A stretch of 64,000 nucleotides of DNA from contig NZ_CP051293.1 of the NCBI RefSeq assembly GCF_013170805.1, positions 3,540,001-3,604,000 on the forward strand. Reading direction: 5' to 3'. This document shows, in pieces, positions 27,827 through 57,686 of the stretch; positions within the stretch are counted from its first letter, which is position 1; each line of letters starts with the position of its first letter. The position numbers and the translations under genes were made by a program. This DNA is from Mesorhizobium sp. NZP2077. Lineage in GTDB: Bacteria; Pseudomonadota; Alphaproteobacteria; Rhizobiales; Rhizobiaceae. Below the pieces are notes generated by a model, which saw nothing but the letters and a program-made list of their open reading frames with translations, ran no database searches and was not told the origin of the DNA.

Positions 27827-27971
27827 TTTTCTCTCCCGAAATCTTCGCATAGAGCGTTGATTTCATTGCGGAAAATGACATTCGATTTTTCCGGCCTTGC
27901 AGATTTCGCCCGTTTTGTGCCACTAATTGCGCCACACAGCTAGCCCCGACAGGCTTTTTGCAGGTGCGCGC

Positions 27972-37166: not shown

Positions 37167-37498
37167 GCGACGATTACGATCCTTACTCGCCGCGCAGGCC
37201 GAAGGGCGAGCGCAAGCGCGAGGCGACGGAAGAGCTTCGCGATGCGGAGACAACCAGCACGGCGCAGACCGTGGCGGCCGGGCAGCTGCGCGCGCTGATC
37301 GAGCGCATCGAGCGGCTGGAGGAAGAGAAAAAGACCATCGCCGAGGACATCAAGGAAGTCTTCGCCGAGGCCAAGGGCACGGGTTTCGACACCAAGGCCA
37401 TCCGCACCATCATCAAGCTGCGCAAGAAAGACCCGGCCGAGCGCGCCGAGGAAGACGCGATCCTCGACCTCTACAAAGCTGCGCTGGGGATGGTGTGA
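37163..37498 (+). CDS. GapR-like protein (DUF2312)
   Basis: The 111-residue product has a disordered, charged N-terminus of about 40 residues and a DUF2312 domain. [32 protein letters not shown] and [12 protein letters not shown] are all diagnostic. GapR is the alphaproteobacterial nucleoid protein that encircles overtwisted DNA. The start is GTG overlapping the upstream stop. Phage DUF2312 genes often accompany DNA-modification genes, as here. Confidence 0.92.
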
Positions 37499-38685
37499 TG
37501 AAATACCAGCTGCTGCCCCGCCTTTCTTCCGAAGAATTCGCCTCGCTCGAACGCTCGATCATCGCGCATGGCGTGCTGGTGCCGGTGGAGTATGACGAGG
37601 CCGGCGACATCATCGACGGCCATCACCGTGTCGAGATCTGCGAAAGCCTTGGCCTGGTCGACTGGCCGAGATTCGTGCGCAAGGGCCTGTCGGAAACCGA
37701 CAAGCGGACGCTGTCGCGCGAACTGAACTTCGCCCGCCGCCACCTGACCACGGCGCAGAAACAGGCTGTCATCGCCGACCAGCTGCGCGACACGCCGTCG
37801 ATCTCGTCGCGCGCCATCGCCGCCATGCTCGGCGTCCATCATTCGACGGTCCAGTCGGTGCGCAAGACGCTGGTCGATGGTGGCGAAATTAGCCACCATG
37901 ACGAGGTCGAGGGCAGGGACGGTGTCGTCCAGCCGGCCCGCAAATCGATCAAGACCGCCTTCGTCCCCGACCGCGAGAATGTCGGTGAGTACATGAAGGG
38001 CGCGAAGATGATCCGCGCCGAAAAGCAAAAGGTCGCGCATACTGTGCGCCTGGCGCATATGGAGATGACTGCCTCTCGCGGGCAGGCCGCGGCGCCCGGC
38101 AAGGTCGGCGGAAAGTATCCCGTCATCTATGCCGATCCGCCCTGGCGCTTCGGCGTTCGCTCGGAAGTGACCGGTCGCGAAAAGAGCGCTGAAAACCACT
38201 ATCCGACGATGGACAGCGCCGACATTGCCGGCCTGTTCCGCGAGATCGGCGAGCCTGCCACCGACGACGCCGTGCTTTTCCTGTGGGCGACAAACCCGAT
38301 GCTGCATGACGGCCTGCGCGTCATGGCCGCCTGGGGCTTCGACTATGTCCATCACTGGATATGGGACAAGGAAGTCGCCGGAACCGGCTACTGGGGCCGC
38401 GACCGCCACGAGCTGCTGTTGATCGGCCGGCGCGGCAATGTGGCATCGCCACTTCCGGGATCGCAGCCGGAGACGGTCTATCGCGAACGCAAGGGCAAGC
38501 ATTCGGCCAAACCGGATTTCTTCGCCGAGACGATCGAGCGGCTGTTTCCGTCGATGCCGCGGCTGGAACTGTTCTGCCGCCAACCGCGCCCGGGCTGGGA
38601 TGTCTGGGGCTTCGAGGCGGGTCTGCCGGAAGGTCCAGTGGCCCTTCCGCCCGTCGAGAAGGCCGGGGAGCCGCGCGATGGCTGA
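37498..38685 (+). CDS. ParB-N domain fused to MT-A70 family adenine methyltransferase
   Basis: This is a 395-residue fusion. Residues 1 to about 110 form a ParB/Srx-like N domain (DIIDGHHRVEICESLGLVDW), followed by a helix-turn-helix (ISSRAIAAMLGVHHSTVQSV). The C-terminal half is an MT-A70 methyltransferase with the catalytic DPPW motif (VIYADPPWRFGVRS) and HWIWDKEVAGTGYWGRDRHE. It probably makes N6-methyladenine in DNA. Target recognition could come from the N-terminal part. The ATG overlaps the GapR-like stop (TGATG). Confidence 0.9.
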   Translation: MKYQLLPRLSSEEFASLERSIIAHGVLVPVEYDEAGDIIDGHHRVEICESLGLVDWPRFVRKGLSETDKRTLSRELNFARRHLTTAQKQAVIADQLRDTPSISSRAIAAMLGVHHSTVQSVRKTLVDGGEISHHDEVEGRDGVVQPARKSIKTAFVPDRENVGEYMKGAKMIRAEKQKVAHTVRLAHMEMTASRGQAAAPGKVGGKYPVIYADPPWRFGVRSEVTGREKSAENHYPTMDSADIAGLFREIGEPATDDAVLFLWATNPMLHDGLRVMAAWGFDYVHHWIWDKEVAGTGYWGRDRHELLLIGRRGNVASPLPGSQPETVYRERKGKHSAKPDFFAETIERLFPSMPRLELFCRQPRPGWDVWGFEAGLPEGPVALPPVEKAGEPRDG

Positions 38686-42989: not shown

Positions 42990-43354
42990 TAGCGAATCCC
43001 ACCCAGGACAAGCCGTCGACAGTGGAGCGCGTAACCTGCTCCCGAGACCGTGACACGGCCACGCCAGTGCGGCGTAGGATTGGTGCCGGACGGAACCAGG
43101 TGAGGCGAAGGGCGCGGCCCGGCATATGCTTCACCGCAATCGAAAAGATTCCGAAAACCTCCATCTCGCATCGCACCATGTTGTGCAATGCACCCACCGC
43201 ACCGCACCCACCCCCACCCCTTTGGGTCCTTCCCGACCTCCAAAACGTATGCGGGACGGCGTAGCCCGAGGGTTCGCTAGTGAGAGGGTCCGTAAAGCTG
43301 GGTTTACGATGTTAACGATGACCGGTGAACGGTAAACCTCGGCAGGTTTCAGAC
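42990..43354. other. Gene-free early/late boundary interval (possible late promoter, cos or pac site)
   Basis: A 365-bp interval with no convincing gene. It contains a C/A-biased tract (43191-43222) rich in CACCC, the hairpin CGTAAA-N6-TTTACG (43291-43308) and an overlapping inverted repeat GGTTTAC (43301-43307) / GTAAACC (43332-43338) ending 17 bp before the terminase small-subunit start. Position alone suits a packaging site and the late promoter. Confidence 0.5.
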
Positions 43355-43957
43355 ATGCAATCCACTGCCGAACTGCCGACGCCCGTCTGGAAGTCGCTGT
43401 CCGAGATCGCGGTCATGCGTGGCGTCTCGAAGGTCGCGATCAAGAAGCGGGTCGACCGCTACGAGGCCGAGGGCCTGCTGACGACGCGCCGCAACGGCCG
43501 CGAGCGCCAGGTCGACCTTGCCGCCTTCGACAAGGCAATCGGCACCGCCGGCGACGCCTACCGCGAGCAGGCCGCCGAGACGGTGCGCGAGGAGAAGTCC
43601 GAGCCCGCCAACATTCCGAGCGCGCTGCGCGACGCCCAGACCGAGAAGGCGCAGTGGGAAGCGCGGCGCTCCGCCCTCGACGTCAGCGAGCGGCTCGGCA
43701 AGCTGGTGCCGGTCGCGGAAGTCGAGACCGCCATGGTGCGGGCCGGCGAGGCGATCGTGCGGGCGATCGAGCAGCTGCCGACATTCGCCGGCGAGATCAT
43801 GGCGGCATCCCGCGACGGCGAGCCGGCACTGCGCCGCAAGCTGCGCGATATCAAGGATCAGCTCCGCCGCCGTGCCGCCGATGCGCTCACCCTGCAGCGC
43901 ACCGAAGGCCATGCCGACGAGGAAGCCGGCAACGAGTTCGACTTCGGCACCGACTGA
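43355..43957 (+). CDS. Terminase small subunit (Nu1-like)
   Basis: The 200-residue protein has a winged-helix-like segment (SLSEIAVMRGVSKVAIKKRV then DRYEAEGLL) typical of DNA-packaging Nu1-type proteins. A long helical region, AEVETAMVRAGEAIVRAIEQ, precedes an acidic tail, which would contact the large subunit. An upstream GTG at 43325 is possible, but the ATG at 43355 has GGCAGG at a suitable distance. It would bind the packaging site, probably in the interval just upstream. Confidence 0.85.
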   Translation: MQSTAELPTPVWKSLSEIAVMRGVSKVAIKKRVDRYEAEGLLTTRRNGRERQVDLAAFDKAIGTAGDAYREQAAETVREEKSEPANIPSALRDAQTEKAQWEARRSALDVSERLGKLVPVAEVETAMVRAGEAIVRAIEQLPTFAGEIMAASRDGEPALRRKLRDIKDQLRRRAADALTLQRTEGHADEEAGNEFDFGTD

Positions 43958-43967
43958 AGGACCATCC

Positions 43968-45950
43968 ATGAAACTGAAGCTCAAGCGCTCCGCCCTGGCG
44001 GTGATCGCCGGCACGCTTGCCGCGCTGATCATGCCGCCCGAGCGTATGCTGCCCAGCGCCTCGGCCAAAGGGCTGATCGTGCCGGATGGCCCGCAGGCCA
44101 ACGAGAAGTGGGACGCATCGCTGACGCCCTACATCATCGAGCCGCTCGACCTGATGGCGATGGACTCGGGCGTCAATGAATTCGATATCCGCAAGTCGGC
44201 GCAGACTGGCTTCACCACGCTGATCCTGGCCGCGGTCAAACACATCATCGAGCAGGATCCGTGCCGGGCGATGATCGTGCAGCCGACCTCCGGCGCGCTC
44301 ACTGACTTCAACAAGGACAAGCTAGGCCCGGCGATCGAAAACACGCCGTCACTCAAGCGCAAGGTCAAGCCGCAGACCAGCCGCGCTGGTGACGCCTCGA
44401 CCACGACATCGAAAGTCTTCCCAGGCGGCTCGCTGACGCTGGCGATCGCCTCGTCGCCGGCCGATCTGCGATCGAAGACGATCAAGGTCGCGCTGCTCGA
44501 CGAGGTCGACGAGTATCCCGACGACCTCGACGGCCAGGGCGATCCGCTCGGCATGATCGAGGCCCGGCAGGAATCGTTCCTGATGTCGGGCGAGTGGAAG
44601 CGCGCCAAGATCTCGACGCCGACCGTCAAGGGCGCCTCGAAGATCGACGCTGGGTTCCACGCCGGCGACCAGCGCTATTGGCACATGCCGTGCCCCGGCT
44701 GCGCTGCACCGTTCAAGTTCGTCTTCGACCGCACCTTCTTCAAGTTCGAAGAAACCTTTCCTTACAAGGCCTATTACGCGACGCCCTGCTGCGGCGCGAT
44801 CGTCGAGGCGTCCGACAAGGTCGAGCTGATGAAGAAAGGTCGCTGGATCGCTACGGCGCCGCGGCCAGGCGCGCATCCGAGCTACCATTTCGACGCGCTG
44901 ACCTCGCCCTTCGTGCCATGGGAGAAGATCGCAGAGCGCTTCGTCAAGGCGGCCGGCGATCCGCTCAAGCTGAAGACCTTCGAAAACCTGACGCTCGGCC
45001 TGCCGTTCGAGGTCAAGGGTGACGCGCCCGACCACGCCAAGCTGATGTTGCGCCGCGACAAGGAACAGAAGCGCGGCCACATTCCGGGCGCCGGCCTGAT
45101 CCTGACCGGAGCCGCCGACGTGCAGATGCGCGGCATCTGGTATTCGGTCAAGGCCTATGCGCCGGACGGGCAGAGCTGGGTTGTCGATGCCGGCTACCTC
45201 TCCGGCGAAACCGACGATCCCCACGCCGGCGCCTTCGCCGAGCTGGAAAAAATCCGCGTCACGCAATGGCCGGACGCCTACGGCCGCACCCGCACCGTCG
45301 ACCTGTTCGGCGTCGACTCGGGTTATCGCAGCCATGTCGTCTATTCATGGGTGCGCGGCAAGGCGGCGACCTTCGCGCTCAAGGGCATCGACGGCTGGAG
45401 CCGCCCAGCGCTCGGCCAGCCGACGAAGGTCGACATCGACTTCAAGGGCGAGCGCATCCGCGGCGGCGCCATGGTCTGGGCGGTCGGCACCTGGCCGCTG
45501 AAGGGCGCCTTCTACGCGCAGCTGCGCAAGGAAGGCATCGCCGCCGGGCAGCCGGTCAATCCGGCCGGCTACTGCCACTTCGCCTGGTGGCAGGACGAGG
45601 TCTATTTCCGCCAGATCACCTCGGAATATCTGGCCACCGAAACCTATCGCGGCCGTGCCCGCCGGGTCTGGAAGATCCGTGGCGGCGAGGAAAACCACCT
45701 GCTCGACTGCGAGATCTACAATGCGGCACTGGCCGACTATCTCGGCCTGTCGCGGATGACATCCGACCAGTGGCGCACGCTCGCCGCCGATCGTGGATTT
45801 CCGCAGGATTTCGACTTCTTCGCGCCCGACGTCCTGCAGGTTCAGATGCGTGCTCCGTCCAAGTCGCAGGCGCGTGTGCCGAAAGGTCCGAAGCCCATGC
45901 AGTCGACGTCGGCACCTATAGCTGAAGAAAAACCCGCATTCTGGGATTGA
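43968..45950 (+). CDS. Terminase large subunit (GpA family)
   Basis: This is the packaging motor ATPase plus nuclease. The 660-residue protein has a Walker-A-like RKSAQTGFTT near residue 85 and Walker B with acidic pair in VALLDEVDEYP near residue 175. A zinc-finger-like segment follows (CPGCAAPF and CCGAIVEA). The C-terminal nuclease contains DLFGVDSGYRSHVVYSW, with catalytic aspartates. The ATG at 43968 follows a gap of ten bases after the small subunit. Confidence 0.95.
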   Translation: MKLKLKRSALAVIAGTLAALIMPPERMLPSASAKGLIVPDGPQANEKWDASLTPYIIEPLDLMAMDSGVNEFDIRKSAQTGFTTLILAAVKHIIEQDPCRAMIVQPTSGALTDFNKDKLGPAIENTPSLKRKVKPQTSRAGDASTTTSKVFPGGSLTLAIASSPADLRSKTIKVALLDEVDEYPDDLDGQGDPLGMIEARQESFLMSGEWKRAKISTPTVKGASKIDAGFHAGDQRYWHMPCPGCAAPFKFVFDRTFFKFEETFPYKAYYATPCCGAIVEASDKVELMKKGRWIATAPRPGAHPSYHFDALTSPFVPWEKIAERFVKAAGDPLKLKTFENLTLGLPFEVKGDAPDHAKLMLRRDKEQKRGHIPGAGLILTGAADVQMRGIWYSVKAYAPDGQSWVVDAGYLSGETDDPHAGAFAELEKIRVTQWPDAYGRTRTVDLFGVDSGYRSHVVYSWVRGKAATFALKGIDGWSRPALGQPTKVDIDFKGERIRGGAMVWAVGTWPLKGAFYAQLRKEGIAAGQPVNPAGYCHFAWWQDEVYFRQITSEYLATETYRGRARRVWKIRGGEENHLLDCEIYNAALADYLGLSRMTSDQWRTLAADRGFPQDFDFFAPDVLQVQMRAPSKSQARVPKGPKPMQSTSAPIAEEKPAFWD

Positions 45951-45953
45951 GCC

Positions 45954-46148
45954 ATGGCCTGGACGCAAACCGACATCAACGCCATCAAGAAGGCCATGGC
46001 CTCGGGCGTGCTGACCGTCAAGCATGGCGAGACGCTGACCACCTTCCGCTCGATGTCCGAGATGGAACGCGTGCTGGCGCGCATGGAAGCCGAGGTCAAC
46101 GGATCGGCCGGCGGCGCGATGTTCACCGAATTCCATAGCGGTACCTGA
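45954..46148 (+). CDS. Head-tail joining protein (gpW-like)
   Basis: The 64-residue protein begins MAWTQTDINAIKKAMASGVL. It is a typical gpW-type connector, located between the terminase large subunit and the portal, as in lambda. The ATG is four bases after the terminase stop. Confidence 0.85.
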   Translation: MAWTQTDINAIKKAMASGVLTVKHGETLTTFRSMSEMERVLARMEAEVNGSAGGAMFTEFHSGT

Positions 46149-47663
46149 ATGAACGCGCTCGACCGCCTGATCTCGGTTTTCTCGCCGCAAGCCGGCCTGC
46201 GCCGCGCCGCCGCGCGCGCCTCGCTCGAAGGCTTCGAGCGCAGCTATGCCGCTGGTCAGTCCGGCCGCCGCAACAAGGGCTGGACAGGTCGCGGCACCTC
46301 GGCCAACGTCGAGGTCGGCCAGGCGCTGGCGACGCTGCGCAATCGGGCGCGAGAATTCGTCCGCGATAGCTGGGCGGGTCAACGCATCCTCGACGTGCTG
46401 GTCTCGCATGTCGTCGGCACCGGCATCACCGTGGTGCCGAACACCGGCTCCGACCGTTCAGACAACCAGTTCCGGCTGGCCTACGAGGAATGGCAGGCGC
46501 AGGCCGACCTCGAAGGCGTGCTCGACGCGCCGACCATGCAGGGCCTGGCCTTGCGCTCCATGGTCGAGGGCGGCGACAGCGTCATCCGCTTCATCGATCT
46601 GACGTCGCAGGAGGCCGATGGCAGCGTGCCGTTCAGGTTGCAGGGCCTCGAAGGCGACCAGATCGATGCCTCGCGCGACTATGGCCTTGCCGGTTCCAAC
46701 ACCAGGCTCGGCGTTGAGCTTGGCGACGGTGGCCGTCGCAAGGGCCTGTGGTTGTGGAAAAACCATCCTGGCGACATGTCGGTGTCGGCCTTGGGCGGCG
46801 GCTCGGCGATGGTCGACTGGAAGGATCTCTGCCACCTCTACCGGCCTCTGCGCTGGGGCCAGGTGCGCGGCATCACTTGGTTCGCGCCGATCTTGCTCAA
46901 CGGCCGTGAGGCGCAGGATCTGTTCGATTCTGCCCTCATGCAGGCGCGCACGCAGGCCTGTTTCGCCGGTTTCCGCAAGTCCAATCCCGGCGATCCCAAT
47001 CCGTTCGCGGTCAAGGATGCCGCCGATGGCTCCGGCGACAGCCAGAAAGTCACCCGCATCGAGCCGGGCATGATCGTCGACATCGGCAATTCCGACATGG
47101 TGTTCGCCCAGCCGTCGTCGCAATCGCAGTTCGGCACCGTCTACCTCGCCGCCATGCAGGCAATGGCCGCCGGCGCCGGCATCACCTATGACCAGCTGAC
47201 CGGCGATCTGCGGCAAGCCAACTATTCCAGCCTGCGCGCCGGCAAGATCGATTTCCGCCGCCTGGTCGAGCAGATCCAGTGGCACCTGATGGCACCGCGG
47301 CTGGTGATGCCGACGACGCGCCGTTTCATCGATCGCGCCATCCTCGCCGGCAAGCTTCGGCCGCGCAGCGACGGCTATCCGGTCGACCTGATCATGCCGG
47401 CCAATGAGCCGATCGACCCCAAGAAGGACCTCGACGCCGATATCGCCGCCGTCCGCGCCGGCCGAATGTCTCCGCAGGAGTTCATCTCGGCATGGGGCCG
47501 CGATTGGAAGAAGGTGATCGCCGACACCGAGGCGTTCTTCAAGATCAGCGACAAGGCCAATCTCGCCCTCGATATCGACGGCCGCCGCCCGCTCAACGGC
47601 GGATCGGCGCCATCGCCACAGGATGGCGCCCCGCAAACCCCACAGGATGGCAACAATGACTGA
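46149..47663 (+). CDS. Portal protein (lambda gpB family)
   Basis: The 504-residue dodecamer-forming portal through which DNA enters and leaves the head. Family blocks include RNRAREFVRDSWAGQRILDV near residue 60, VSHVVGTGITVVPN and the C-terminal PANEPIDPKKDLDADIAAVR. It starts directly after the gpW-like stop and overlaps the protease start by eight bases. Confidence 0.93.
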   Translation: MNALDRLISVFSPQAGLRRAAARASLEGFERSYAAGQSGRRNKGWTGRGTSANVEVGQALATLRNRAREFVRDSWAGQRILDVLVSHVVGTGITVVPNTGSDRSDNQFRLAYEEWQAQADLEGVLDAPTMQGLALRSMVEGGDSVIRFIDLTSQEADGSVPFRLQGLEGDQIDASRDYGLAGSNTRLGVELGDGGRRKGLWLWKNHPGDMSVSALGGGSAMVDWKDLCHLYRPLRWGQVRGITWFAPILLNGREAQDLFDSALMQARTQACFAGFRKSNPGDPNPFAVKDAADGSGDSQKVTRIEPGMIVDIGNSDMVFAQPSSQSQFGTVYLAAMQAMAAGAGITYDQLTGDLRQANYSSLRAGKIDFRRLVEQIQWHLMAPRLVMPTTRRFIDRAILAGKLRPRSDGYPVDLIMPANEPIDPKKDLDADIAAVRAGRMSPQEFISAWGRDWKKVIADTEAFFKISDKANLALDIDGRRPLNGGSAPSPQDGAPQTPQDGNND

Positions 47664-48285
47664 GATCATCCGCCTGCCGCAGATGCTGCGCGACGCCGAG
47701 GTGCGCGCCGGATCCTTCGATGAAGCGACCAACTCGATCGACGTCATCTGGACCACTGGCGCCACGGTGCGGCGCTTTTCGTGGATGGATGGCGAGTTCG
47801 ATGAGGAATTGATCGTCAGCGGCAACGCCGTACGCCTCGGTCGCCTCAATGCCGGCGCGCCGTTCCTCGACACGCACGGCCAATGGAGCCTCAACGACGT
47901 CATCGGCTCGGTGGTGCGCGGTTCCGCCAAGATCGAAGGTGGCAAGGGTGTCGCCACCGTCAAGCTGTCGGCCGCCGCCGACGCCGTCGACCGCGTCGCC
48001 CGCATCAAGGAAGGAACAGTCTCCAACATCTCGGTCGGCTACCGCATCCACGCCGTCGAACGCAAGGAAATGGATGGCAAGGTGCCGCTGCACCGCGTCG
48101 TCGACTGGGAGCCGTGGGAAATCTCGGCGGTGCCGATTCCGGCTGATCCCGGCGCGCAGGTGCGCAGTGACGGCGCCAAGCCGGAAACATTCGATTGCCG
48201 CGTCATGCGCACGCTCGCCGACGCTAACGAGGTCCGCCGCATCCGTCTCGGCATGCAGCAGCGGATGGCCGGTCTCGGCCGCTAG
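47656..48285 (+). CDS. Prohead protease (HK97 family)
   Basis: The 209-residue serine protease matures the prohead by cutting the capsid delta domain. The catalytic histidine is probably in LDTHGQWSLND (about residue 73) and the serine in VSNISVGYRIHAVER (about residue 127), with an acidic residue in the following strand. Two earlier in-frame starts (47623, 47647) exist. The ATG at 47656 follows AGGA and overlaps the portal end. Confidence 0.88.
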   Translation: MTEIIRLPQMLRDAEVRAGSFDEATNSIDVIWTTGATVRRFSWMDGEFDEELIVSGNAVRLGRLNAGAPFLDTHGQWSLNDVIGSVVRGSAKIEGGKGVATVKLSAAADAVDRVARIKEGTVSNISVGYRIHAVERKEMDGKVPLHRVVDWEPWEISAVPIPADPGAQVRSDGAKPETFDCRVMRTLADANEVRRIRLGMQQRMAGLGR

Positions 48286-48371
48286 CACACCAGCATATCA
48301 ACGGCCGCCTGCGCTCCACCGGGGACGCAGGGCGACGGCTCATCGCCCCGGAATCGCAAAGGACCAAAGCC

Positions 48372-49997
48372 ATGATGAAAAAGGCTTTCTTCTCCGCGGC
48401 CGTCGCCATGATCTTGTGCGCCGGCCTTATCGTCGGCCTTGGTGCCGACCTGGCATATGCGGCCCCGCATCTGTCCGCCCTCGACCTGCACCAGCATTTC
48501 AACCTTTCCGACCACGCCATGCATGCCGCCATCGGCCTTGCCGCCCTGCGTGTCAGGCTGACCGAACTGACCACCAAGGCCGAACAGAAGAAGGCCGAGA
48601 TCAAGGATGACACCGCCGCCGATGCGGCGCGTGCGATCGAGGCCGACCATGCCAAGATCATGACCGAGATCGAGCAGGTCAAGGCCGACATCCGCACCGC
48701 CGAAGCCGAGGAAACCCGCAGCCAGCAGCAGCTGACTCCGCCGGCCGATGCGGCAACTCGTGCCGCCGACATCGTCGGCATCGCCGCCACGGCGCGCGCC
48801 CAGGGCGTCGATCTGTCGACCGAAGACGAGCAGGCCGCGATCCGCAGCAATGTCGACCCGTCCGCCTTCCGTGCCCAGATGTTCGACCGCCTGGCGGCCC
48901 GCCAGACGCCGACCATCCCGGCCCGCATCGGCCAGGACGATCGCGACGTCCGCCGCACCGCCATGACCGAGGCGCTGGCCTATTCGCTCGGCGCGCCGCT
49001 GCCGGCCGCAGGGCCTTCCGCTGCCGCCCGCCCGTTCATGGGCCGCAGCATCATCGACATTGCGGCGCAGTCGGTCGACTGGCGCGGTGGCATGGTGGTC
49101 AATGCCCGCCAGAAGGACGAGATCCTGACGCGCGCCGGCATGTCGACGTCGGATTTCCCAATCATCTTCGAGAATGCCATCAACCGCACCCTCGAAGGCC
49201 GCTATGCGCTCGCACAGCCGACCTATCGCAGCATCGCCCGCAAGCAGAATTTCAACGATTTCCGGCCGCACACCACGGTCAAGACCGGTGATTTTCCGAT
49301 GCTGCAGAAGGTGCTGGAATCCGGCGAGATCAAATACGGCACCTTCAACGAAGGCAAGGAAACCGTGTCGGCGTTCAGCTACGCCATCGCGCTGTCGATC
49401 ACCCGCCAGATGCTGATCAACGACAACATCGGCGCCATTGCCGACCTGCTGTCGAGCTACGGCCCGACCGTCGCGCTGTTCGAGGAAATCACCTTCTACA
49501 GCTTGGCCTTCAATGCCGCCCTGGCGGATGGCAAGACGGTGTTCCACGCCGACCACGGCAACCTTGCCAGCCCCGGCACGGCGATCGATGTCACCAATGT
49601 CGGCAAGGCGCGCGCCGCCATGTCGAAACAGAAGTCGACCGGCGGCAACCAGCTGCTGTCCAATGCCGCCAAGCTGCTTCTCGTTGGCCCCGACAAGCTG
49701 ACCGAGGCGGAAATGCTGATCGCCTCGATCACGCCGGCGACTGTTGCCACCGTCAACATCTTCTCCGGCAAGCTCGGCGTACTCGACACCGCGCAGATCA
49801 CCGGCAACGCCTGGTATGCCTTCGCCGATCCGGCGCTAGGATCGAATTACCGCTGGGGCTATCTCGAAGGCTACGAGGCGCCGCGCGTGCGCACCGACGA
49901 GCCGTTCGGCACCCAGGGCTTCAAGATGTCGGTCGAGATCGACTTCGGCGTCGGCGCTACCGACTACCGCTTCGGCTACAAAAACCCCGGCAACTAA
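48372..49997 (+). CDS. Major capsid protein with signal-peptide-like N-terminus
   Basis: The 541-residue capsid protein of the HK97 fold. Residues 1 to 31 are MMKKAFFSAAVAMILCAGLI followed by a hydrophobic run ending AYA, a convincing Sec-type signal with an Ala-x-Ala site. Residues 55 to 120 are a coiled-coil delta domain (RLTELTTKAEQKKAEIKDD). The mature fold spans about 200 to 541, with GYEAPRVRTDEPFGTQGFK near the C-terminus. The signal-like leader is unexpected for a capsid protein and would presumably be removed with the delta domain. Confidence 0.9.
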   Translation: MMKKAFFSAAVAMILCAGLIVGLGADLAYAAPHLSALDLHQHFNLSDHAMHAAIGLAALRVRLTELTTKAEQKKAEIKDDTAADAARAIEADHAKIMTEIEQVKADIRTAEAEETRSQQQLTPPADAATRAADIVGIAATARAQGVDLSTEDEQAAIRSNVDPSAFRAQMFDRLAARQTPTIPARIGQDDRDVRRTAMTEALAYSLGAPLPAAGPSAAARPFMGRSIIDIAAQSVDWRGGMVVNARQKDEILTRAGMSTSDFPIIFENAINRTLEGRYALAQPTYRSIARKQNFNDFRPHTTVKTGDFPMLQKVLESGEIKYGTFNEGKETVSAFSYAIALSITRQMLINDNIGAIADLLSSYGPTVALFEEITFYSLAFNAALADGKTVFHADHGNLASPGTAIDVTNVGKARAAMSKQKSTGGNQLLSNAAKLLLVGPDKLTEAEMLIASITPATVATVNIFSGKLGVLDTAQITGNAWYAFADPALGSNYRWGYLEGYEAPRVRTDEPFGTQGFKMSVEIDFGVGATDYRFGYKNPGN

Positions 49998-50076
49998 GCG
50001 GCCTGATCCCTGACGGGCGGCCCAAATCCTATGCCGCTCGTTCCCCCCTCATCCATCCCTCTGCAGGAGGCAAATC

Positions 50077-50427
50077 ATGAAGAACTACATCCAGCCGGGC
50101 AACGAGATTGCCTGGACCAATGAAGACGTCACCGGAGCCGTGGATGTCGCCTCGGGCGACGGCGTCGTTGCCGGATCGTTGTTCGGCGTTGCCAATGGCG
50201 ATATCGCCGTCGGTGACGAAGGCACGCTTTCCCTGATCGGCGTCTACGAACTGCCCAAGGTCTCGGCGCAGGCCTGGACCTTCGGCCAGCGCATCTACTT
50301 CGTCGCCGCCAGCGGCGAATGCACCAGCACCGCCGGCTCGAACAAGCTGATCGGCGTCGCCGTGGAAGCGGCAGACAACCCGTCCGCCACCGGCAAGGTG
50401 CGGCTGTCCAGCGCCTTCACCATCTGA
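50077..50427 (+). CDS. Capsid decoration protein A (DUF2190)
   Basis: The 116-residue beta-rich protein begins MKNYIQPGNEIAWTNEDVTG, with an AGGAGG ribosome-binding site seven bases upstream. DUF2190 proteins decorate the capsid of many tailed phages. A clear paralogue occurs as the N-terminal domain of the protein starting at 53215. Confidence 0.88.
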   Translation: MKNYIQPGNEIAWTNEDVTGAVDVASGDGVVAGSLFGVANGDIAVGDEGTLSLIGVYELPKVSAQAWTFGQRIYFVAASGECTSTAGSNKLIGVAVEAADNPSATGKVRLSSAFTI

Positions 50428-50434
50428 TTGCAGC

Positions 50435-53218
50435 GTGGCGCAGCTCGTCCGCGATTGGGAAGGCGAAACCGCCTTCGTGCTCGCGGGCGGGCCGTCCGTG
50501 CGCAATCTCGACCTGTCGCTCTTGAAAGGGCGGCGGGTCATCGCCGTCAACTCGGCGCATCTGGCTTACCCCGATGCCGATGCGCTCTACTACGCCGATT
50601 CCGACTGGTGGATGCGTACCGGCTCGAAGGAACCGCCTTTCGCCGGCGAGATCTTCACCACCAACGCGCTCGGCGGGCCGAAGTCGGTCAAGCGGCTGGT
50701 CAAGGTCGATCCTGGCCGTGGTGTCTCAATCCATCCCGGTCGCATCGTTGTTTCGGCAACGTCGGTTTCCGGGGCAATGAACATCCTGACCCTGCGCGGC
50801 GTTGCCCGCATCGTGCTGCTCGGCGTCGATGGCTGTGTGGGCGCGGATGGTCGGCGTCATCATCATGATGGGCGCTATCCAGATCCCCTGAGAAAGGGCG
50901 GCTTCGAGCGCCACCGCCGCGAACTCGAAGCGCTGGCGCCGTCGATCCGCAAGCTTGGTGTCGAAGTGATCAACTGTTCCCCGGTCAGCCATGTCGCCTG
51001 CTGGCCGAAAGTGCCCTTTGGAGACGTCATTTCCATGCTCGACCGCGTTGCCGTCAAGCCGCCGCTGACCGTGCTCTCCATGTACGGCATCGGCGACAAT
51101 CTTCATCAGCGCGCCGTATTGCGCGAGCTGATGAAGACGCATGATGTCGAGCTGCAGACCTATTACACGTCGATGTTCCATGACCTCGAAGCCGAAGGGC
51201 TCAAGGTCACGCTGGTCGCCGGCAAGCTCGATCCCCGCATCAATGACAGGGGAAATACCACCGCAGCCCGCAAGCCGGTCCGGTCGCACGACAGGAAGAT
51301 CGGTTATGACCACGCGGCGACGAAGCGGCACGGCACGCTGCTCGCCGCCATGTTCGGCTCGGTAGGACTGCCTGTCCCGGAGCGGCCGGACTTTTCCCTG
51401 CCGGTCAAGCCGGAATGGCGGGAAGCGGCACGGGCATTGATAGGCGATACCAGCGGAAAGCCGATCATGGTCTACCGCCCGATCGTGATCAATGCGACGT
51501 GGTCGGCGCCTGCGCGCTCGCCTGACCCGGCGGCCTATGCCGCGCTCTATGGCGCGATCAAGGATCGCTTCTTCACCGTGTCGGTCTGCAACCTGACCCA
51601 AAAGGGCGAGGAGATCGTCGGCGAGGAACAGCCGGCCGACCTGAAGCTGCACCATGGCGAGGCGGATTTCGAGACGCTGGCCGGGCTGTTCGCCGAGGCA
51701 GCGCTGGTTTTCGGAAATGCCGGCTTCACGCCGATCCTGGCGCAGGCGGTCGGCACGCCGAATATTGTCGTCTATGGCGGCAATGAAAGCTACCGCTTCA
51801 CCAATATCGTTGGCGCGCACCTGGCGCCGACGCTGCCGATCGAGCCGGTCAAGCCGTGCGAGTGTTTTGATCGTCACCACAAATGCGACAAGACCATCGA
51901 CCTGGCGAAGGCCGTGCCATTGGTTGAGGCCTTCGCCACCGAACATGCGGCCATGGCGCGCATCCTGGTGTTCGGCACCACCTATGTTGATACGCCGGCA
52001 AAGGCAAAGCTCGCCGAGCAATGGCAGGCGCTGCACGAGACGCTAAATCCCGGCGCTCATCTGTTGCTGGTCGACAGCGCTTCACCGGAATGGTGGTTCG
52101 AGGACGGATCGCCGAAGCCTGACGACACGATGCCGGGCTGCCAGGTCTATTCTTTCCCCGACAACATCGGCCATCTCGCGCGCGGCGGCAAAGACGGCTG
52201 GGGCAGGGCCTTCAGCAAGGGCCTCGAAATGGCGATCGACGGCCAATATGACTACGTCGTCCACATCGAGGGCGACAGCCTGTTTTCCAAGCCGGTGCTG
52301 CCGATCATCCGCAAGATGATGGCCGATGGCGTCAAGGCCGCCTCGGTGCCGGTCGAGGGCACCAAGCGCAAGGAAACCGGCTGGGCTGAAACCGGCCTGA
52401 TGTTCTTCAGCGTCGACTATCTCTGGCAGTCGAAGTTCATCGAGCGCTACGACTGGTGGAACCGGAGCAAAAGCCCGACGCCGGAGAAGGTGATCTTCGA
52501 CCTGATCGGTGAGGATCTGTGCATGCTGCCGCTCAAGGCCGAGCGCGGCGACAGGGGCCAGTTGACGGCCGCCAACGCTGCCGGCTTCGACTGGATCACG
52601 CACTGCGCGCCGGAAGCGCTGGATGCCTTCGTTGAGGCGGCCATGCCGCCGCCACCGGTCGAGATCGAGGCACCAGCCGCGCAGATCGAGCCGGCGGTCA
52701 AGCTGAATTTCGGCTGCGGCACCAATCGCCTCGACGGCTGGCAGAACTTCGACGCCGAGATCGACATCACCAAGCCGCTGCCGTTCGCCGACGATCATGC
52801 CGATTTCATCTATGCCGAGCATGTCGTCGAGCATGTCGATTACGTCAAGGCGCTGGCCTTCTTCGCCGAGTGCCGGCGCGTGCTGAAGCCGGGCGGCGTC
52901 ATCCGCATCTGCGTGCCCAGCCTCGAAAACATCTGGAAGCGTGGCGACCAGGCTTATTGCGATTTCACCCGCAGATGGGGACCGACCGCCGATCTGCGCG
53001 GCGCCATGCACGCCATCATCTTCGCGCACGGCCACAAGGCGATCTGGTCGCAAGGTCTGCTCGAAGCAGCGCTCTATTTCGCCGGCTTCGACGGGATCGA
53101 AGGGGCGGAGGTGCACAAGTCTTCTCGGGTCGACCTGACCAACGTCGAAGGCCATCACACCGTCATCGGCGAGCACTTCAACTGGATCGAGGCGGCAATC
53201 GCCGAGGGACGGAAGTGA
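50435..53218 (+). CDS. Four-domain DUF115-like / glycosyltransferase / glycosyltransferase / SAM-methyltransferase fusion
   Basis: The 927-residue protein reads as four modules. Residues 1 to about 190 form a DUF115/MptE-like domain (FVLAGGPSVRNLDLSLLKGR). Residues 200 to 500 are a GT9/GT-B-like domain (SMYGIGDNLHQRAVLREL and VFGNAGFTPILAQAVGTPNI). Residues 510 to 750 resemble a GT-A-type glycosyltransferase (VVHIEGDSLFSKPVLPIIRK). Residues 765 to 927 are a class I SAM methyltransferase (LNFGCGTNRLDGW, EHVVEHVDYVKALAFF, RVLKPGGVI). Start is GTG at 50435, seven bases after decoration protein A. The stop overlaps the second decoration gene. I infer it builds or modifies a glycan on the virion or host surface. 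Confidence 0.8.
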   Translation: MAQLVRDWEGETAFVLAGGPSVRNLDLSLLKGRRVIAVNSAHLAYPDADALYYADSDWWMRTGSKEPPFAGEIFTTNALGGPKSVKRLVKVDPGRGVSIHPGRIVVSATSVSGAMNILTLRGVARIVLLGVDGCVGADGRRHHHDGRYPDPLRKGGFERHRRELEALAPSIRKLGVEVINCSPVSHVACWPKVPFGDVISMLDRVAVKPPLTVLSMYGIGDNLHQRAVLRELMKTHDVELQTYYTSMFHDLEAEGLKVTLVAGKLDPRINDRGNTTAARKPVRSHDRKIGYDHAATKRHGTLLAAMFGSVGLPVPERPDFSLPVKPEWREAARALIGDTSGKPIMVYRPIVINATWSAPARSPDPAAYAALYGAIKDRFFTVSVCNLTQKGEEIVGEEQPADLKLHHGEADFETLAGLFAEAALVFGNAGFTPILAQAVGTPNIVVYGGNESYRFTNIVGAHLAPTLPIEPVKPCECFDRHHKCDKTIDLAKAVPLVEAFATEHAAMARILVFGTTYVDTPAKAKLAEQWQALHETLNPGAHLLLVDSASPEWWFEDGSPKPDDTMPGCQVYSFPDNIGHLARGGKDGWGRAFSKGLEMAIDGQYDYVVHIEGDSLFSKPVLPIIRKMMADGVKAASVPVEGTKRKETGWAETGLMFFSVDYLWQSKFIERYDWWNRSKSPTPEKVIFDLIGEDLCMLPLKAERGDRGQLTAANAAGFDWITHCAPEALDAFVEAAMPPPPVEIEAPAAQIEPAVKLNFGCGTNRLDGWQNFDAEIDITKPLPFADDHADFIYAEHVVEHVDYVKALAFFAECRRVLKPGGVIRICVPSLENIWKRGDQAYCDFTRRWGPTADLRGAMHAIIFAHGHKAIWSQGLLEAALYFAGFDGIEGAEVHKSSRVDLTNVEGHHTVIGEHFNWIEAAIAEGRK

Positions 53219-54474
53219 AGAACTATATCGGTCCCGGCAGCACCATCCCCTGGACGAACGATGGCGATGCCGCCGTCGCATCTGGCGATGGCGTGATGGC
53301 CGGCGCGCTCTTCGGCGTCGCGCAGACCGACATCGCGGTCGGCGAGGCCGGCGAGCTGGCGCTGACCGGTGTCTGGATCCTGCCGAAGCCTGAGAATGAG
53401 GACTGGACCGTCGGCCAGCGCGTCTATTGGGACGCCGGCCAGGCGACCGCGACCGAAGGCGACAATCTGATCGGCGTCGCCGTCGAGATCTCTGGCGAAG
53501 CCGCCGGAAAAGTCCGCTTGAGTGCCGCCTTTATCGGTGCGGGCGGGGGTGGTGGGGGCGGACGCATCCTTTATCTCGGTGAAGCCCTGACCGTGGACGG
53601 CGAACCTCTCCTTTCAGGAACGGATGACGATATGGAACTCGTGGATGCACTGGCCGCACTTGGAGCAATCGTTAACCCTGACACGCAGCAATGGGGCTTC
53701 GGCGTTGCGGATATTTCCGAACTGCAACCGGCGCGACTGACGGTTAAGCCGACAGAGGGCGGCCTAGGAAGCGAGCTTGTCAGCAATGGTTCGTTCACCG
53801 GCAACGCAGACGGATGGTCCCTTTCAGAAGGCTGGGCCTACGGTGGTAACAAGGTCACGCGAACTCCGGGCGTGGAGGATGCCGGTTTCGATCAAGCCAA
53901 TTTGGCTACTGTAAAAAACACAGAGTATCGAATAACCGGAACAATAAGCGGGGCCTCCGGTATATGGACATTGCGCGTGGCGATGGGAGCAGCGAATGCG
54001 ACGTTGACCGAAAATGGCGACTTCTCGGTGACGCTATTTTACTCCAACGACACGGGTCAGGGTGACGTTCAATTTGCATCTCTGGATGATACTTTCAATG
54101 GGTCGATCGACAGCGTTTCAGTCAATCAAATCCTCGACATCACGACGTTCGCGTTGCTTCATAACAATGGCGATTTGGCCATCACTTTCGACACCAGTTT
54201 GAACAATTCGACTGAGGTTTCCAAGTTCAAGGTTAACTCAAACGACAATATTACCATTCAGCCGGGCAACTATTTTGGGCTCCGTCAGAACCCTCAGGAT
54301 GGCGATCAGATCACGTTCATCGACCACTACAACGCCAGCCAAGAGCGGACAATCGGTCTACCCGATGGTGATGGTGACGTGGCTCTGGCCAACGGTGCTT
54401 CCGACACGTTCACTACTGTTGACCTGAAGACAGTGACTGTCGACGGCGGCATTGTCAGCAACATAGCGTCCTAA
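53215..54474 (+). CDS. Decoration protein B: DUF2190 domain fused to a jelly-roll-like module
   Basis: The 419-residue protein starts with GTG (overlapping the preceding TGA). Residues 1 to 108 match decoration protein A throughout (VKNYIGPGSTIPWTND, ASGDGVMAGALFGVA). A poly-glycine linker (GAGGGGGGG) follows. Residues 190 to 310 contain SNGSFTGNADGWSLSEGWAY, typical of carbohydrate-binding jelly-roll modules (CBM4/9-like), and the tail is beta-rich. GC content falls visibly after about 53640, so the C-terminal part was probably acquired separately. Confidence 0.78.
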   Translation: MKNYIGPGSTIPWTNDGDAAVASGDGVMAGALFGVAQTDIAVGEAGELALTGVWILPKPENEDWTVGQRVYWDAGQATATEGDNLIGVAVEISGEAAGKVRLSAAFIGAGGGGGGGRILYLGEALTVDGEPLLSGTDDDMELVDALAALGAIVNPDTQQWGFGVADISELQPARLTVKPTEGGLGSELVSNGSFTGNADGWSLSEGWAYGGNKVTRTPGVEDAGFDQANLATVKNTEYRITGTISGASGIWTLRVAMGAANATLTENGDFSVTLFYSNDTGQGDVQFASLDDTFNGSIDSVSVNQILDITTFALLHNNGDLAITFDTSLNNSTEVSKFKVNSNDNITIQPGNYFGLRQNPQDGDQITFIDHYNASQERTIGLPDGDGDVALANGASDTFTTVDLKTVTVDGGIVSNIAS

Positions 54475-54477
54475 CCA

Positions 54478-55170
54478 ATGCCTCCACCAGCCCGAGCGAC
54501 TGACGGTGACCCAGTGAACATAACCCACCGAGATCAATGGTTCGGCGGACGCACCTATGCGCAGCATGGCGACGATCTAGCGGTGCTCAACATCTTCAAG
54601 CGGCTCGGCATCGAAAAGCCGTCCTATCTCGATGTCGGTGCTTATCATCCGTTCGACCTCTCGAACACGGCTCTGCTCTATGAGCGCGGTTCGCGCGGCA
54701 TCAATGTCGAGCCGAACAAGGCGCTGTTCGATGCGTTCAGCAAGGCCCGGCCGGGAGACACCAACGTCCATGCCGGCGTCGCGCCGGTCTGCGGCAGGAT
54801 GACCTTCTATCACGTCAACGCCGATCCCGGCCGCTTTACCTTCGACGTGGCGATCGCTTCCACGCTTGGCTTCACGCGCGCCGAAGAGGTGGACGTCCAC
54901 ACGCTGAACAACATCGTCGACGTGGCGGGCACCGGCATCTGGCCCGACCTGCTCAACATCGACATCGAGGGCCTCGACATCGACGTGCTGCGCGCGGCCG
55001 ATTTCGGCGAAAACCCGCCACGCGTCGTCATCGTCGAAGCCGACAATGGCAGCGGCGACACCAGCCACGAACTGGATGCGCTGATGCATGCCAAGGGTTT
55101 CACCCTGCACAGTTGGGCAGGCTCGAACATGATCTTCGTGCGCGTCGCCGACAGCGACAGGATCTGGTGA
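54478..55170 (+). CDS. FkbM family methyltransferase
   Basis: The 230-residue SAM-dependent methyltransferase has motif I in YLDVGAYHPFDLSNTALLYE, the FkbM acidic segment in INVEPNKALFDAFSKARPGD and DIEGLDIDVLRAADFGENPP. FkbM-family enzymes O-methylate sugars or polyketides. The ATG at 54478 lies three bases after decoration protein B; a GTG at 54514 is an alternative. Methylation of a capsid-linked or surface glycan is inferred from position. Confidence 0.85.
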   Translation: MPPPARATDGDPVNITHRDQWFGGRTYAQHGDDLAVLNIFKRLGIEKPSYLDVGAYHPFDLSNTALLYERGSRGINVEPNKALFDAFSKARPGDTNVHAGVAPVCGRMTFYHVNADPGRFTFDVAIASTLGFTRAEEVDVHTLNNIVDVAGTGIWPDLLNIDIEGLDIDVLRAADFGENPPRVVIVEADNGSGDTSHELDALMHAKGFTLHSWAGSNMIFVRVADSDRIW

Positions 55171-55171
55171 A

Positions 55172-56167
55172 ATGTCGATCCTCGGCATGCGGCAATGGTC
55201 GATGGGTGGGGCGTATCAGTTTGTGCTCGCCGCCGCCGAGGTGCCGTCCTACGCCAATTCCGGCGGATCCGGCAACCGGTCATCGCTGATCACCATTACC
55301 ACCGATGCCACCATGGCCGGCAGCGGCGGCATCGCCGTGATGATCGACGGCGCGCAAACGGACAGCGCATGGTTCGCATCAGGCCAGTCTGGCAAATACG
55401 TCAAGTTCGACTTCGGCGCCGGCAACTACAAGGCGATTTCGGAGATCAAGTGGTACCAGGACAGCGCTGTCTCGCAGGGCAGTTGGGTCTTGGATGGTTC
55501 GAACGACGACGCGAACTGGGTGCCGATTTCTGACAGTTTCACATTGGGCACATCGGCGACCACCACCATCCCCGTGGCTTACAATGCCGGCAAGGGCTAT
55601 CGCTACTATCGGCTGCTCCAGGTCTCCGGTACGACGAGCTCTAGTCCGTACATCCGCGAAGTCGAGTTCAAGATTGCCGCCGCGCCGCAGGCCAACGATA
55701 ACAATTCGGCGGTGCCGTCCTACCTTAATCCCGGCGGCACGGGCGACCGTTCCGCAAGCATCACCGTTACCAGCACGTTCACAGCCGGATCCGGCTCGAC
55801 CTTGAGCAATCTGGTCGACGGCGGATTCGGTCTGAACAGTACCGATAGTCTGGAGATTCCCGGATCGCAGAGCAACCAGACGATCACCTTCGATTTCGGG
55901 GTCGGCGCCAGCAAGATCATCACAGGCTATGCCTTCTGGCAGAACCCTGGGGGCAGTCAAGGTACATGGAAGCTGCGCGCGTCGAACGACAATTCGAACT
56001 GGACCGATGTCGGTGCAGCCGAGACGCTCGGCGGGGTTTTCCGCCAAGTGTCTAAGTCCGCGTCCGCCAACACGACCGGCTATCGCTATTACCAATTGTT
56101 CCAGACATCGGGCTTTACCACCACAACGCCCTGGAACCAAGAAATCCAGTTCGAGATCGCGGCTTAG
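55172..56167 (+). CDS. Protein with two tandem discoidin (F5/8-type)-like domains
   Basis: The 331-residue protein has two repeats of about 140 residues. Each begins 'YANSGGSGNRSSLITIT' or 'YLNPGGTGDRSASITVT', contains a 'DFGxGxxKxI' strand, 'GSWVLDGSNDDANW' or 'GTWKLRASNDNSNW', and ends 'YRYYxLxQxSGxT…EVEFKIAA' or 'EIQFEIAA'. These are hallmarks of sugar-binding discoidin folds. A membrane-independent, virion-attached glycan-binding role is likely. Confidence 0.78.
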   Translation: MSILGMRQWSMGGAYQFVLAAAEVPSYANSGGSGNRSSLITITTDATMAGSGGIAVMIDGAQTDSAWFASGQSGKYVKFDFGAGNYKAISEIKWYQDSAVSQGSWVLDGSNDDANWVPISDSFTLGTSATTTIPVAYNAGKGYRYYRLLQVSGTTSSSPYIREVEFKIAAAPQANDNNSAVPSYLNPGGTGDRSASITVTSTFTAGSGSTLSNLVDGGFGLNSTDSLEIPGSQSNQTITFDFGVGASKIITGYAFWQNPGGSQGTWKLRASNDNSNWTDVGAAETLGGVFRQVSKSASANTTGYRYYQLFQTSGFTTTTPWNQEIQFEIAA

Positions 56168-56180
56168 GGGCAGGTAGATC

Positions 56181-57686
56181 ATGCGCACCATTAAGAAAGG
56201 CGCCACCAGCCAGTCGGTCTATTTCGACGTGCTGGATTCCACATCGACCACAGGTGGGCGCAAAACCGGCCTTGCCTTCAACACGTCGAGCCTGGTTGCC
56301 TATTATGTGCGCAACCAGGGCACCGCAACCGCTATCACGCTGGCAACGCTGGCCGCCGCCAACACGGCATGGTCGTCGGGCGGTTTCAAGGAAGTCGACG
56401 CCACCAACATGCCCGGCATCTACCGCCTCGACGTGCCTGATGCGGCTTTTGCGACCGGAGCGGGTGATGACGTGGTTATCGTGCTCAAGGGCGCCACTGG
56501 CATGGTGCAGGCGAGCGTCGATGTCCAGCTTGTCGCATGGGACCCGCAGGACAGCGTCCGCGCCGGCCTGACCGCGCTGCCCAATGCCGCCGCCGAAGCC
56601 GCTGGCGGGCTCTATACGCGCGGTACTGGGGCAGGACAGATCAACCAGGACGCCAACGGCCGCGTTGACGCCAACGCCAAGGCATGGGCCGGCACCGCGA
56701 CGACGTTGACCTCCGGCTTGCCCGACGTCAACATGAAGACGATCACCGCCGGCATCATCGCCGCGGCCTCCTTCGCCGCCAACGCGCTTGACGCGGTGTG
56801 GTCGACGGCAACCCGCGTGCTGACCGCCGGCACCAACATCGCGCTCGCCAAGGGAACCGGCGTCACAGGGTTCAATGATCTGTCAGCCGCGGAGGTCAAT
56901 GCCGAAGCGGATACGGCCCTCTCTGACGCTGGCGTGACCAGCGTGCGCCAGGCGCATCTGGATGCCGACGTCTCCAGCCGTTCGACCTATGCCGGAGCCG
57001 ACACGGCTGGAACCACGACATTGCTTTCGCGCCTCACCAACACGCGCGCCGGCCTGCTTGATCATCTCGACGCTGATATCTCGAGTCGCATGGCGACGTT
57101 CAGTTATACGGCGCCGCTGGATGCCGCTGGAACACGCTCGGCGCTCGGTCTGGCTTCGGCCAATTTCGACACGCAGATCGCCACACTGGCCACCTCGGCG
57201 GCGCTTACGGCCTTGCAGAGCCACGGCGACAGCACCTGGTCGACGGCGGATGTCTCCGACTTGCCGACCAATGCCGAGCTCGCCACGGCGCTGGCTGGGG
57301 CGGATGATGCCACACTGGCGGCTATTGCCTCGCTGTCGTCAGGCATATCGGCCAGTTTCACCAGCCTCGCCAGCTATGGCGACAGCCATTGGTCGACCGC
57401 TACCGGCTTTGCCACGGTCAACCCAGACAATGCCGGCATCGCCGCAATCCAGGAGCGCACCGACAATCTGCCGGACGATCCTGCTGATGCATCGGTAGTC
57501 GCCGGCGCGTTCACTGCCCTGCAAAGCCATGGTGATGGTGCTTGGGCGACCGGGGCGACTGCGCCGACTGCGGACGCGATCGCCGATGAGGTCGAGACGC
57601 GCACGCTTAACGCCAACATGACCAAGATCAACGGCACCGCGCTGACAGGCGACGGATCGTCCGGCGACAAGTTCGGGCCGGCATAA
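56181..57686 (+). CDS. Beta/alanine-rich phage structural protein
   Basis: The 501-residue protein begins MRTIKKGATSQSVYFDVLDS; residues 1 to 120 look like the beta-sandwich N-terminal domain of baseplate/fibre-type proteins. The rest is Ala/Thr-rich, with repeated segments 'ALQSHGDSTWSTADVSDLPT' and 'ADVSSRSTYAGADTAGTTT', suggesting a fibrous shaft. An attached structural fibre role is inferred. GGGGCAGG is present 10 to 17 bases upstream. Confidence 0.6.
   Translation: MRTIKKGATSQSVYFDVLDSTSTTGGRKTGLAFNTSSLVAYYVRNQGTATAITLATLAAANTAWSSGGFKEVDATNMPGIYRLDVPDAAFATGAGDDVVIVLKGATGMVQASVDVQLVAWDPQDSVRAGLTALPNAAAEAAGGLYTRGTGAGQINQDANGRVDANAKAWAGTATTLTSGLPDVNMKTITAGIIAAASFAANALDAVWSTATRVLTAGTNIALAKGTGVTGFNDLSAAEVNAEADTALSDAGVTSVRQAHLDADVSSRSTYAGADTAGTTTLLSRLTNTRAGLLDHLDADISSRMATFSYTAPLDAAGTRSALGLASANFDTQIATLATSAALTALQSHGDSTWSTADVSDLPTNAELATALAGADDATLAAIASLSSGISASFTSLASYGDSHWSTATGFATVNPDNAGIAAIQERTDNLPDDPADASVVAGAFTALQSHGDGAWATGATAPTADAIADEVETRTLNANMTKINGTALTGDGSSGDKFGPA

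Follow-up and report, generated by a model that had tools for sequence, protein, structure and literature searches.

What purpose could glycan-building enzymes serve amid the structural genes of a prophage? We addressed this question in the window, i.e. the whole 64-kb stretch of DNA that was analysed (positions 3540001-3604000 of a 7.69 Mb Mesorhizobium genome). Its late operon runs rightward from the portal gene via an S78 protease, the major capsid protein and a DUF2190 cement protein to a 927-aa fusion protein. It continues with a second DUF2190 protein, an FkbM methyltransferase, a double discoidin protein, a 501-aa protein, several neck-region genes and the major tail protein.

The cassette and its domains

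The genes and domains are listed below by window position, with E-values unless bits are stated.

46149..47663, + strand: portal protein, context (phrog_21, E 4e-76)
47623..48285, + strand: prohead protease of type S78, context (PF04586, 3.3e-7; phrog_4523, N-part)
48372..49997, + strand: major capsid protein, context (PF25209, 1.1e-42; phrog_4523, 7e-113)
50077..50427, + strand: DUF2190 / Phage_cement_2 protein 1 (PF09956, 1.6e-28); the upstream neighbour in eight relatives too
50435..53218, + strand: 927-aa four-domain glycan-enzyme fusion, a single open frame (family profiles, predicted folds)
50435..51052, + strand: fusion domain 1 ('N115'), residues 1-206, DUF115/Maf_flag10-CstII-like (phrog_4603, 1.2e-27; CstII profile match; PF01973)
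51053..51910, + strand: fusion domain 2, residues 207-492, GT9-type GT-B (predicted fold)
51947..52669, + strand: fusion domain 3, residues 505-745, GT-A, GT2/GT8-like, with E612-x-D614 (predicted fold)
52679..53215, + strand: fusion domain 4, residues 749-927, class I SAM methyltransferase (PF08241, 3.4e-9, above cut-off; N758, G760 and C761 in 46/46 rows)
53215..54474, + strand: DUF2190 protein 2 with a 315-residue orphan C-terminal extension (PF09956, 2e-22, residues 7-102); starts within the fusion stop (GTGA)
54478..55170, + strand: FkbM methyltransferase (PF05050, 1.6e-13, or 1.4e-13 if the start is GTG 54514)
55172..56167, + strand: double discoidin (F5/8C) protein (PF22633, 32.1 bits; PF00754, 31.6 bits; both above cut-off)
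56181..57686, + strand: 501-aa protein without a family match at E<=1; same-place relatives in L003, L041, L042, L056 and L086
59078..59593, + strand: major tail protein, right context (phrog_807, 7.6e-12)

On recheck, the coordinates and reading frames that an earlier note had given for the cassette genes were correct, and the cassette lies, as that note had it, within the structural module, with capsid and cement genes to its left and neck and tail genes to its right. From the first cement gene onward, the junctions are 7 bp, a GTGA overlap, 3 bp, 1 bp and 13 bp. For FkbM, the ATG at 54478 and an in-frame GTG at 54514 are equally likely starts, because nucleotide similarity to six relatives sets in only at 54525-54533. 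With the GTG, the gene would begin 36 bases further in. The overlapping or 1-8 bp junctions described earlier hold for the 7 bp, GTGA, 3 bp and 1 bp cases, but the gap between the second cement gene and FkbM may be 39 bp.

Domains 2 and 3 are confidently predicted to adopt GT-B (GT9-like) and GT-A folds, respectively, and the earlier call of these two folds is borne out by the predicted structures. Structures lacking glycosyltransferase folds, which the note had named as a refutation, were thus not obtained for these two domains. The fold list for the fusion was filled by these two domains, and the lack of entries for domains 1 and 4 is no evidence on either of them. For domain 2, the predicted fold is the GT-B fold of heptosyltransferases. 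Its PF01075 score (14.3 bits for the window's own protein) stays below the gathering score of 22 and the single sequence found no PDB match at E<=10, so we call it a divergent GT9-like domain. Domain 3 has an acidic D-x-D-like motif, E612-x-D614.

Conserved motifs were read from an alignment of 46 rows, selected from 120 homologues listed. D221 in the first loop (G-x-G-D) of domain 2 is invariant in 46/46 rows and is a candidate counterpart of Asp-110 of TibC. The cysteines C475 and C484 are likewise present in 46/46 rows, C477 in 42/46, and H482 in 39/46. E612, D614, N758 and G760 are identical in all 46 aligned rows. In domain 1, G19, S21, N39, G130 and D132 are identical in the 27 rows that have this domain, and H142 and H144 are less conserved.

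Domain 1, of about 206 aa and in relatives often a separate protein of about 200 aa, resembles the DUF115/CstII superfamily in its sequence profile. Its family profile matched CstII at E 0.008. Of 19 aligned members, the window's included, 12 matched PF01973 at E<=1 (best 3.4e-5), and 17 of the 120 homologues listed have PF01973 as a precomputed match. The label DUF115-like is therefore supported by the profile, but the window's own domain scores 11.5 bits against PF01973, below the gathering score of 34.6. Domain 4 is a methyltransferase, and the whole-family profile matched only three methyltransferase chains in the PDB. FkbM scored 51.6 bits against PF05050 (gathering score 22.7) and found nothing in the PDB below E 0.08. 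Both methyltransferases named earlier thus exceed their cut-offs.

The cassette enzymes are under purifying selection, with dN/dS ratios of 0.19-0.38. The GT9-GT2-methyltransferase part gave 0.113/0.591 and 0.130/0.641 (0.19-0.20), domain 1 gave 0.141/0.728 against L042 and 0.401/1.054 against L003, and FkbM gave 0.140/0.504.

The cement proteins scored 99.5 and 79.9 bits against PF09956 (gathering score 24), so both of the genes said to bracket the fusion are DUF2190 genes. The bracketing by a second copy is local, however, as tblastn found a single DUF2190 place in each of eight relatives with DUF2190 (L003, L004, L005, L008, L040, L041, L042 and L044). The 315-residue extension of the second copy has no identifiable domain and no relative besides the window's own protein; the sole other match to cement 2, P0122, covers 21%, in the DUF2190 part. 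Both discoidin families reported earlier in the downstream gene were recovered. No relative reaching that far has a discoidin match between FkbM and the neck genes, and the sole match among relatives lies upstream of the fusion in L064. Because the discoidin protein is about 39% identical to part of a protein from Roseobacter-group phages, annotated as 'virion protein' in three of four matched records, its sequence suggests a particle component. A glycan-binding role is putative, with the discoidin match as its one ground, including a weak match to the sugar-binding module 4a42 (E 0.003). Cement 2 with its extension and the discoidin gene were thus added locally, in DNA whose G+C is somewhat lower than that of the surroundings (0.585-0.594 in 2-kb windows at 53-56 kb vs 0.623-0.640), and should carry no argument on the function of the cassette.

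Elsewhere in the window, an integrase adjoins a tRNA-Leu (27742-29336), and the 24-base 3' end of this tRNA has no second genomic copy with up to two mismatches that would mark the attachment site. A 515-aa protein at 37138-38685 unites ParB-like and DNA methyltransferase regions.

Occurrence beside head genes and modular inheritance

The fusion has at least 181 protein relatives, the window's own included, and its named close relatives are from Mesorhizobium. Scans of viral contigs yielded 7 and 51 loci, partly on the same contigs, and a scan of genome contigs yielded five, two of these with GT-A only. Some match at E<=1e-3 was found in 76 of 146 genomes of the genus, mostly weak matches to GT9 or methyltransferase, and a near-complete fusion in five, our own included. 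Domain 1 matched at E<=3e-13 in 11 of the 146, with head genes beside it in 11/11; a weaker match (G047, 9e-5) falls outside the 11 inspected. Across the order, a search for GT9-GT2-methyltransferase at E<=1e-60 found no genome other than our own (1 of 397).

Dropping L061 and L080, which are near-identical to L060, reduced 28 domain-1 loci to 26 distinct ones; L038 and L039, which repeat L002 and L003, had not been counted. Within the fetched stretch, a capsid gene is present at 21 of the 26, and at least one of capsid, portal and terminase at 24. The two without a head gene are short contigs (L058 and L063), and L063 adjoins a DnaB-like helicase. Viral contigs are viral by selection, and the meaningful part of these counts is the adjacency to head genes together with the genus set. 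The recurrence of this gene order beside head genes of other rhizobial prophages, which the earlier note had proposed to look for, was thus found. Where a capsid gene is shown, domain 1 follows capsid or cement with at most two small genes between, and the right-hand neighbours in head-class loci reaching far enough are usually neck and tail genes. By best family, the neighbouring capsids belong to phrog_4523 (window), phrog_29 (six loci), phrog_10 (L060, L046) and phrog_617 (L047, from a separate family scan). Three of these four families cross-match weakly, and the capsids are therefore divergent rather than all unrelated. Some cassettes neighbour a capsid that has no DUF2190 gene with it.

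A further 20 distinct loci have GT9-GT2 without domain 1, although in some cases the gene is cut off by the start of the contig. No capsid gene is seen at any of them, and a tape-measure-like gene lies upstream in six of the 20 (L067 by family, five by similarity to L067). Loci L064-L085 (e.g. L068:8749-12042) encode such fusions of about 1000-1140 aa with some 200-250 extra C-terminal residues after the methyltransferase, which gave no Pfam match in the three scanned. Two cassettes contain a radical SAM/SPASM gene (L086:8659-9495, L089:10597-11454). The prophage locus L045 (7405-13592, genome G127) carries a glycan cluster of about nine ORFs between terminase and portal. It includes GT9, a hexapeptide transferase and two methyltransferases, and a DUF6716 glycosyltransferase was matched weakly.

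We compared 15 head-class loci by rank correlation of protein identities, with 13-15 loci per comparison, and 13-14 for those among GT9, GT2, methyltransferase and capsid. Identities of GT9 and GT2 co-varied (r = 0.91, p = 0.0005; 0.85 without the outlier L086), as did those of GT9 and methyltransferase (0.70, p = 0.0005; 0.51) and those of methyltransferase and FkbM (0.54, p = 0.0005; 0.24). L042 holds only a remnant of FkbM, and comparisons of FkbM with GT9, N115, MCP and p171 were left out. Capsid tracked portal (0.52, p = 0.0005) and neck tracked tail (0.72, p = 0.002). The glycan unit did not track the capsid (0.07-0.11, p = 0.11-0.23; 0.01-0.09 without L086), and co-evolution of domain 1 with the capsid is unsupported (0.08, p = 0.19). 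Over all loci, domain 1 correlated with methyltransferase (0.47, p = 0.007), tail protein (0.46, p = 0.013) and p148 (0.42, p = 0.03), and methyltransferase with tail protein (0.47, p = 0.03), but these four ties dropped to 0.06-0.16 without L086 (0.13 for domain 1 with methyltransferase, 0.16 for domain 1 with tail protein). Tail protein and GT9 gave 0.25 (p = 0.13; 0.03 without L086).

The sister prophage L042 (genome G060) aligns with window positions 43198-51047 at 84% nucleotide identity, from terminase through capsid, cement and domain 1. The alignment ends 5 bases before the border between domain 1 and GT9 and, for this region, resumes only at 55092-55170, the end of FkbM. In L042, domain 1 is a separate gene, 78% identical to the window's, and is followed by a GT9 gene with 46% identity to orf12 of Pseudomonas phage D3 and 24% to the window's, and then by a Methyltransf_23 gene. 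Conversely, in L002 and L006 the GT9-GT2-methyltransferase-FkbM unit is retained (71-90%), but the capsid beside it is of phrog_29 type and shows no detectable similarity to the window's. Hence, GT9, GT-A and methyltransferase domains travel as one unit regardless of the capsid beside them, and relatives have been swapped among many phages, with a DNA breakpoint at the domain border in L042.

More distant phages carry the same enzyme types. Domain-1, GT9 and methyltransferase genes stand in a row in Pseudomonas phage IME307 (Methyltransf_23) and, with a domain-1-like gene and an annotated methyltransferase, in Psp6, both times between the capsid and head-tail connector or tail genes. In the Klebsiella jumbo phage Eowyn, which also has the row, no neighbour is annotated as structural. 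In Caulobacter phage CcrColossus, domain 1, a nucleotide-sugar transferase, a methyltransferase and GT9 follow a tail gene, with an endolysin two genes on. Three of these four trios thus lie inside head or tail regions. Phage D3 has the GT9 gene (orf12) and no domain-1 match, and PAJU2 has domain 1 (ORF010) before GT9 (ORF011). Among 50,697 phage records, there is no match to the GT-A domain of the fusion and none that spans 80% of the whole protein. The domain-1 homologue ORF010 of PAJU2 (L116:4492-5061) is annotated as 'structural protein', an odd label for a pure enzyme; if virion proteomics is behind the label, the enzyme may be retained by the particle. Three records named as green-alga viruses, held in the phage collection, also encode a domain-1 homologue, among them Tetraselmis viridis virus S20 (HQ632857.1:30241-30816, 30% identity).

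Donor sugars, proposed reaction and rival explanations

The HldE kinase domain scored above its cut-off in all six cassette genomes asked, out of the 11 with domain 1, which points to ADP-heptose as a donor. KdsB, the maker of CMP-Kdo, is encoded in our own genome. NeuB was found in 0/6 cassette genomes and in 9 of 14 control genomes, including Caulobacter vibrioides. Literal transfer of sialic or nonulosonic acid in these hosts was therefore rejected, and 'sialyltransferase' is unlikely to be a literal name here; it could be for the Caulobacter phages, given the NeuB match of C. vibrioides. If the cassette does glycosylate virions, the label 'alpha-2,3-sialyltransferase' on such phage genes would not be literal in hosts without the pathway, and could be elsewhere. 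Heptosyltransferase I (WaaC) normally adds heptose to Kdo, and ordinary laboratory E. coli contains both CMP-Kdo and ADP-heptose. Maf enzymes have a CstII-like central domain, PF01973, and can transfer Kdo directly onto Ser/Thr of flagellin if the native donor is absent (PMC11339370).

We consider it fairly probable that the cassette serves phage-encoded glycosylation and methylation of virion proteins. Expressed late along with the structural genes, the fusion would work as a cytoplasmic assembly line. Domain 1 would start the chain on a virion protein with one sugar, probably Kdo taken from CMP-Kdo. The GT9 domain would add a heptose-type sugar, presumably from ADP-heptose, the GT-A domain would add another sugar, and the fused methyltransferase and FkbM would O-methylate the chain. 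This order is proposed because of the donor genes, the Kdo transfer by Maf enzymes and the reaction of heptosyltransferase I. Taken further, the product would be a miniature of the host's LPS inner core on Ser/Thr of the virion, with Kdo, heptose, a GT-A extension and methyl caps, and the DUF115-type domain would be the common priming transferase of exchangeable phage 'capsid glycan loci' that give the same head different glycans. This elaborate version we regard as unlikely.

The main rival explanation, which seems to us rather unlikely, is late modification of the host's own LPS. Changes in the inner core (Kdo, heptose, methylation) during lysis would prevent re-adsorption of progeny to debris, or would block superinfection. 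LPS synthesis employs GT9 heptosyltransferases, CstII-type enzymes and sugar methyltransferases. All enzyme types of the cassette also suit the making of an LPS core, and the donors for which genes were found are those of the LPS core. A late operon would fit the timing, and in CcrColossus the last cassette gene precedes the endolysin by two genes. What speaks for the virion instead is where the cassette lies, close to capsid, cement and neck genes and in heads whose capsids belong to four PHROG families. The cassette proteins also include no flippase, anchor or polymerase family, which is weak evidence because the lipid-A core is made in the cytoplasm. Counting against the virion, the types of capsid, cement and tail-tube protein change while the cassette stays similar.

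Which virion protein would be modified is a related matter. Because the cassette varies independently of the capsid and occurs without DUF2190, there is no specific reason to prefer the decoration proteins as acceptor. A special case of virion glycosylation, overlapping with it in probability and itself somewhat doubtful, is that a tail-tube, neck or fibre protein is the acceptor and the place behind the capsid merely an insertion spot. This would fit the GT9-GT2-methyltransferase fusions downstream of tail genes, the cassette behind the tail gene in CcrColossus, the usual neck and tail neighbours on the right, and the co-variation of domain 1 with the tail protein over all loci. However, that tie and the one between tail protein and methyltransferase fade without L086, tail identity does not track GT9, and domain 1 keeps its close position after capsid or cement. 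The last 25 residues contain 6-9 Ser/Thr in some tail proteins and one in the window's own. We regard it as very improbable that the glycosyltransferases decorate phage DNA. Phages do use such enzymes on DNA bases (PMC12619734), but no base-modifying precursor gene occurred among 18 prophage and neighbouring proteins scanned, the methyltransferases are of FkbM and Methyltransf_11 types, and the cassette is linked to structural genes.

Comparison with known glycosylation systems

Virion glycosylation is reportedly present in Che8, Rita and relatives (Freeman et al. 2023). According to PMC12619734, mycobacteriophages carry glycans on capsid and tail-tube proteins, the work of phage-encoded glycosyltransferases. 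Our cassette likewise encodes predicted glycosyltransferases, and its glycans would likewise sit on virion proteins. The putative glycosyltransferases of the relative Maravista reportedly lie near the 3' end of the genome rather than in the head module. Furthermore, no Ser/Thr-rich C-terminal tail stood out on the capsid or cement proteins of our prophage, in contrast to the mycobacteriophage system, and the 48 phage records that match the fusion include none named Mycobacterium.

The superfamily suggested for domain 1 is that of the Maf/DUF115 flagellin O-glycosyltransferases (PF01973). According to PMC11339370, Maf proteins attach nonulosonic acids directly to Ser/Thr of a self-assembling protein and have three domains, whereas domain 1 is a single domain of about 200 aa; moreover, their usual donor is a nonulosonic acid, whereas our six cassette hosts lack NeuB. 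Unlike the GT9 heptosyltransferases WaaC, WaaF and TibC, the GT9 domain is here fused to three other domains. TibC has a four-cysteine iron finger (Cys 339, 342, 358 and 370). In its place, domain 2 has a C-x-C plus a later C with another spacing, and membership of the TibC type (BAHT) was rejected.

The GT9 genes of the D3-like phages and Psp6 (D3 orf12, PAJU2 ORF011, IME307, Psp6) also lie between capsid and tail genes. They differ in being separate genes with 24-27% identity to the window's GT9, and no GT-A match occurs in any phage record. We found no function for these genes in the open-access literature searched. Seroconverting gtr cassettes of temperate phages encode a flippase and a lipid-linked glucosyltransferase, and scans of the cassette proteins matched neither family at E<=1.

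The cassette is unnamed in the open-access literature searched, but it may still have been published. Glycosylation of virions by phage enzymes is already known from the mycobacteriophages. Our searches found no precedent for the four-domain fusion, its embedding beside four capsid families or the swapping at a domain border, and these are apparently new. If our reading of virion glycosylation is true, such glycosylation is widespread and modular in tailed phages of Proteobacteria, and its loci are exchanged between heads much like O-antigen loci between strains.
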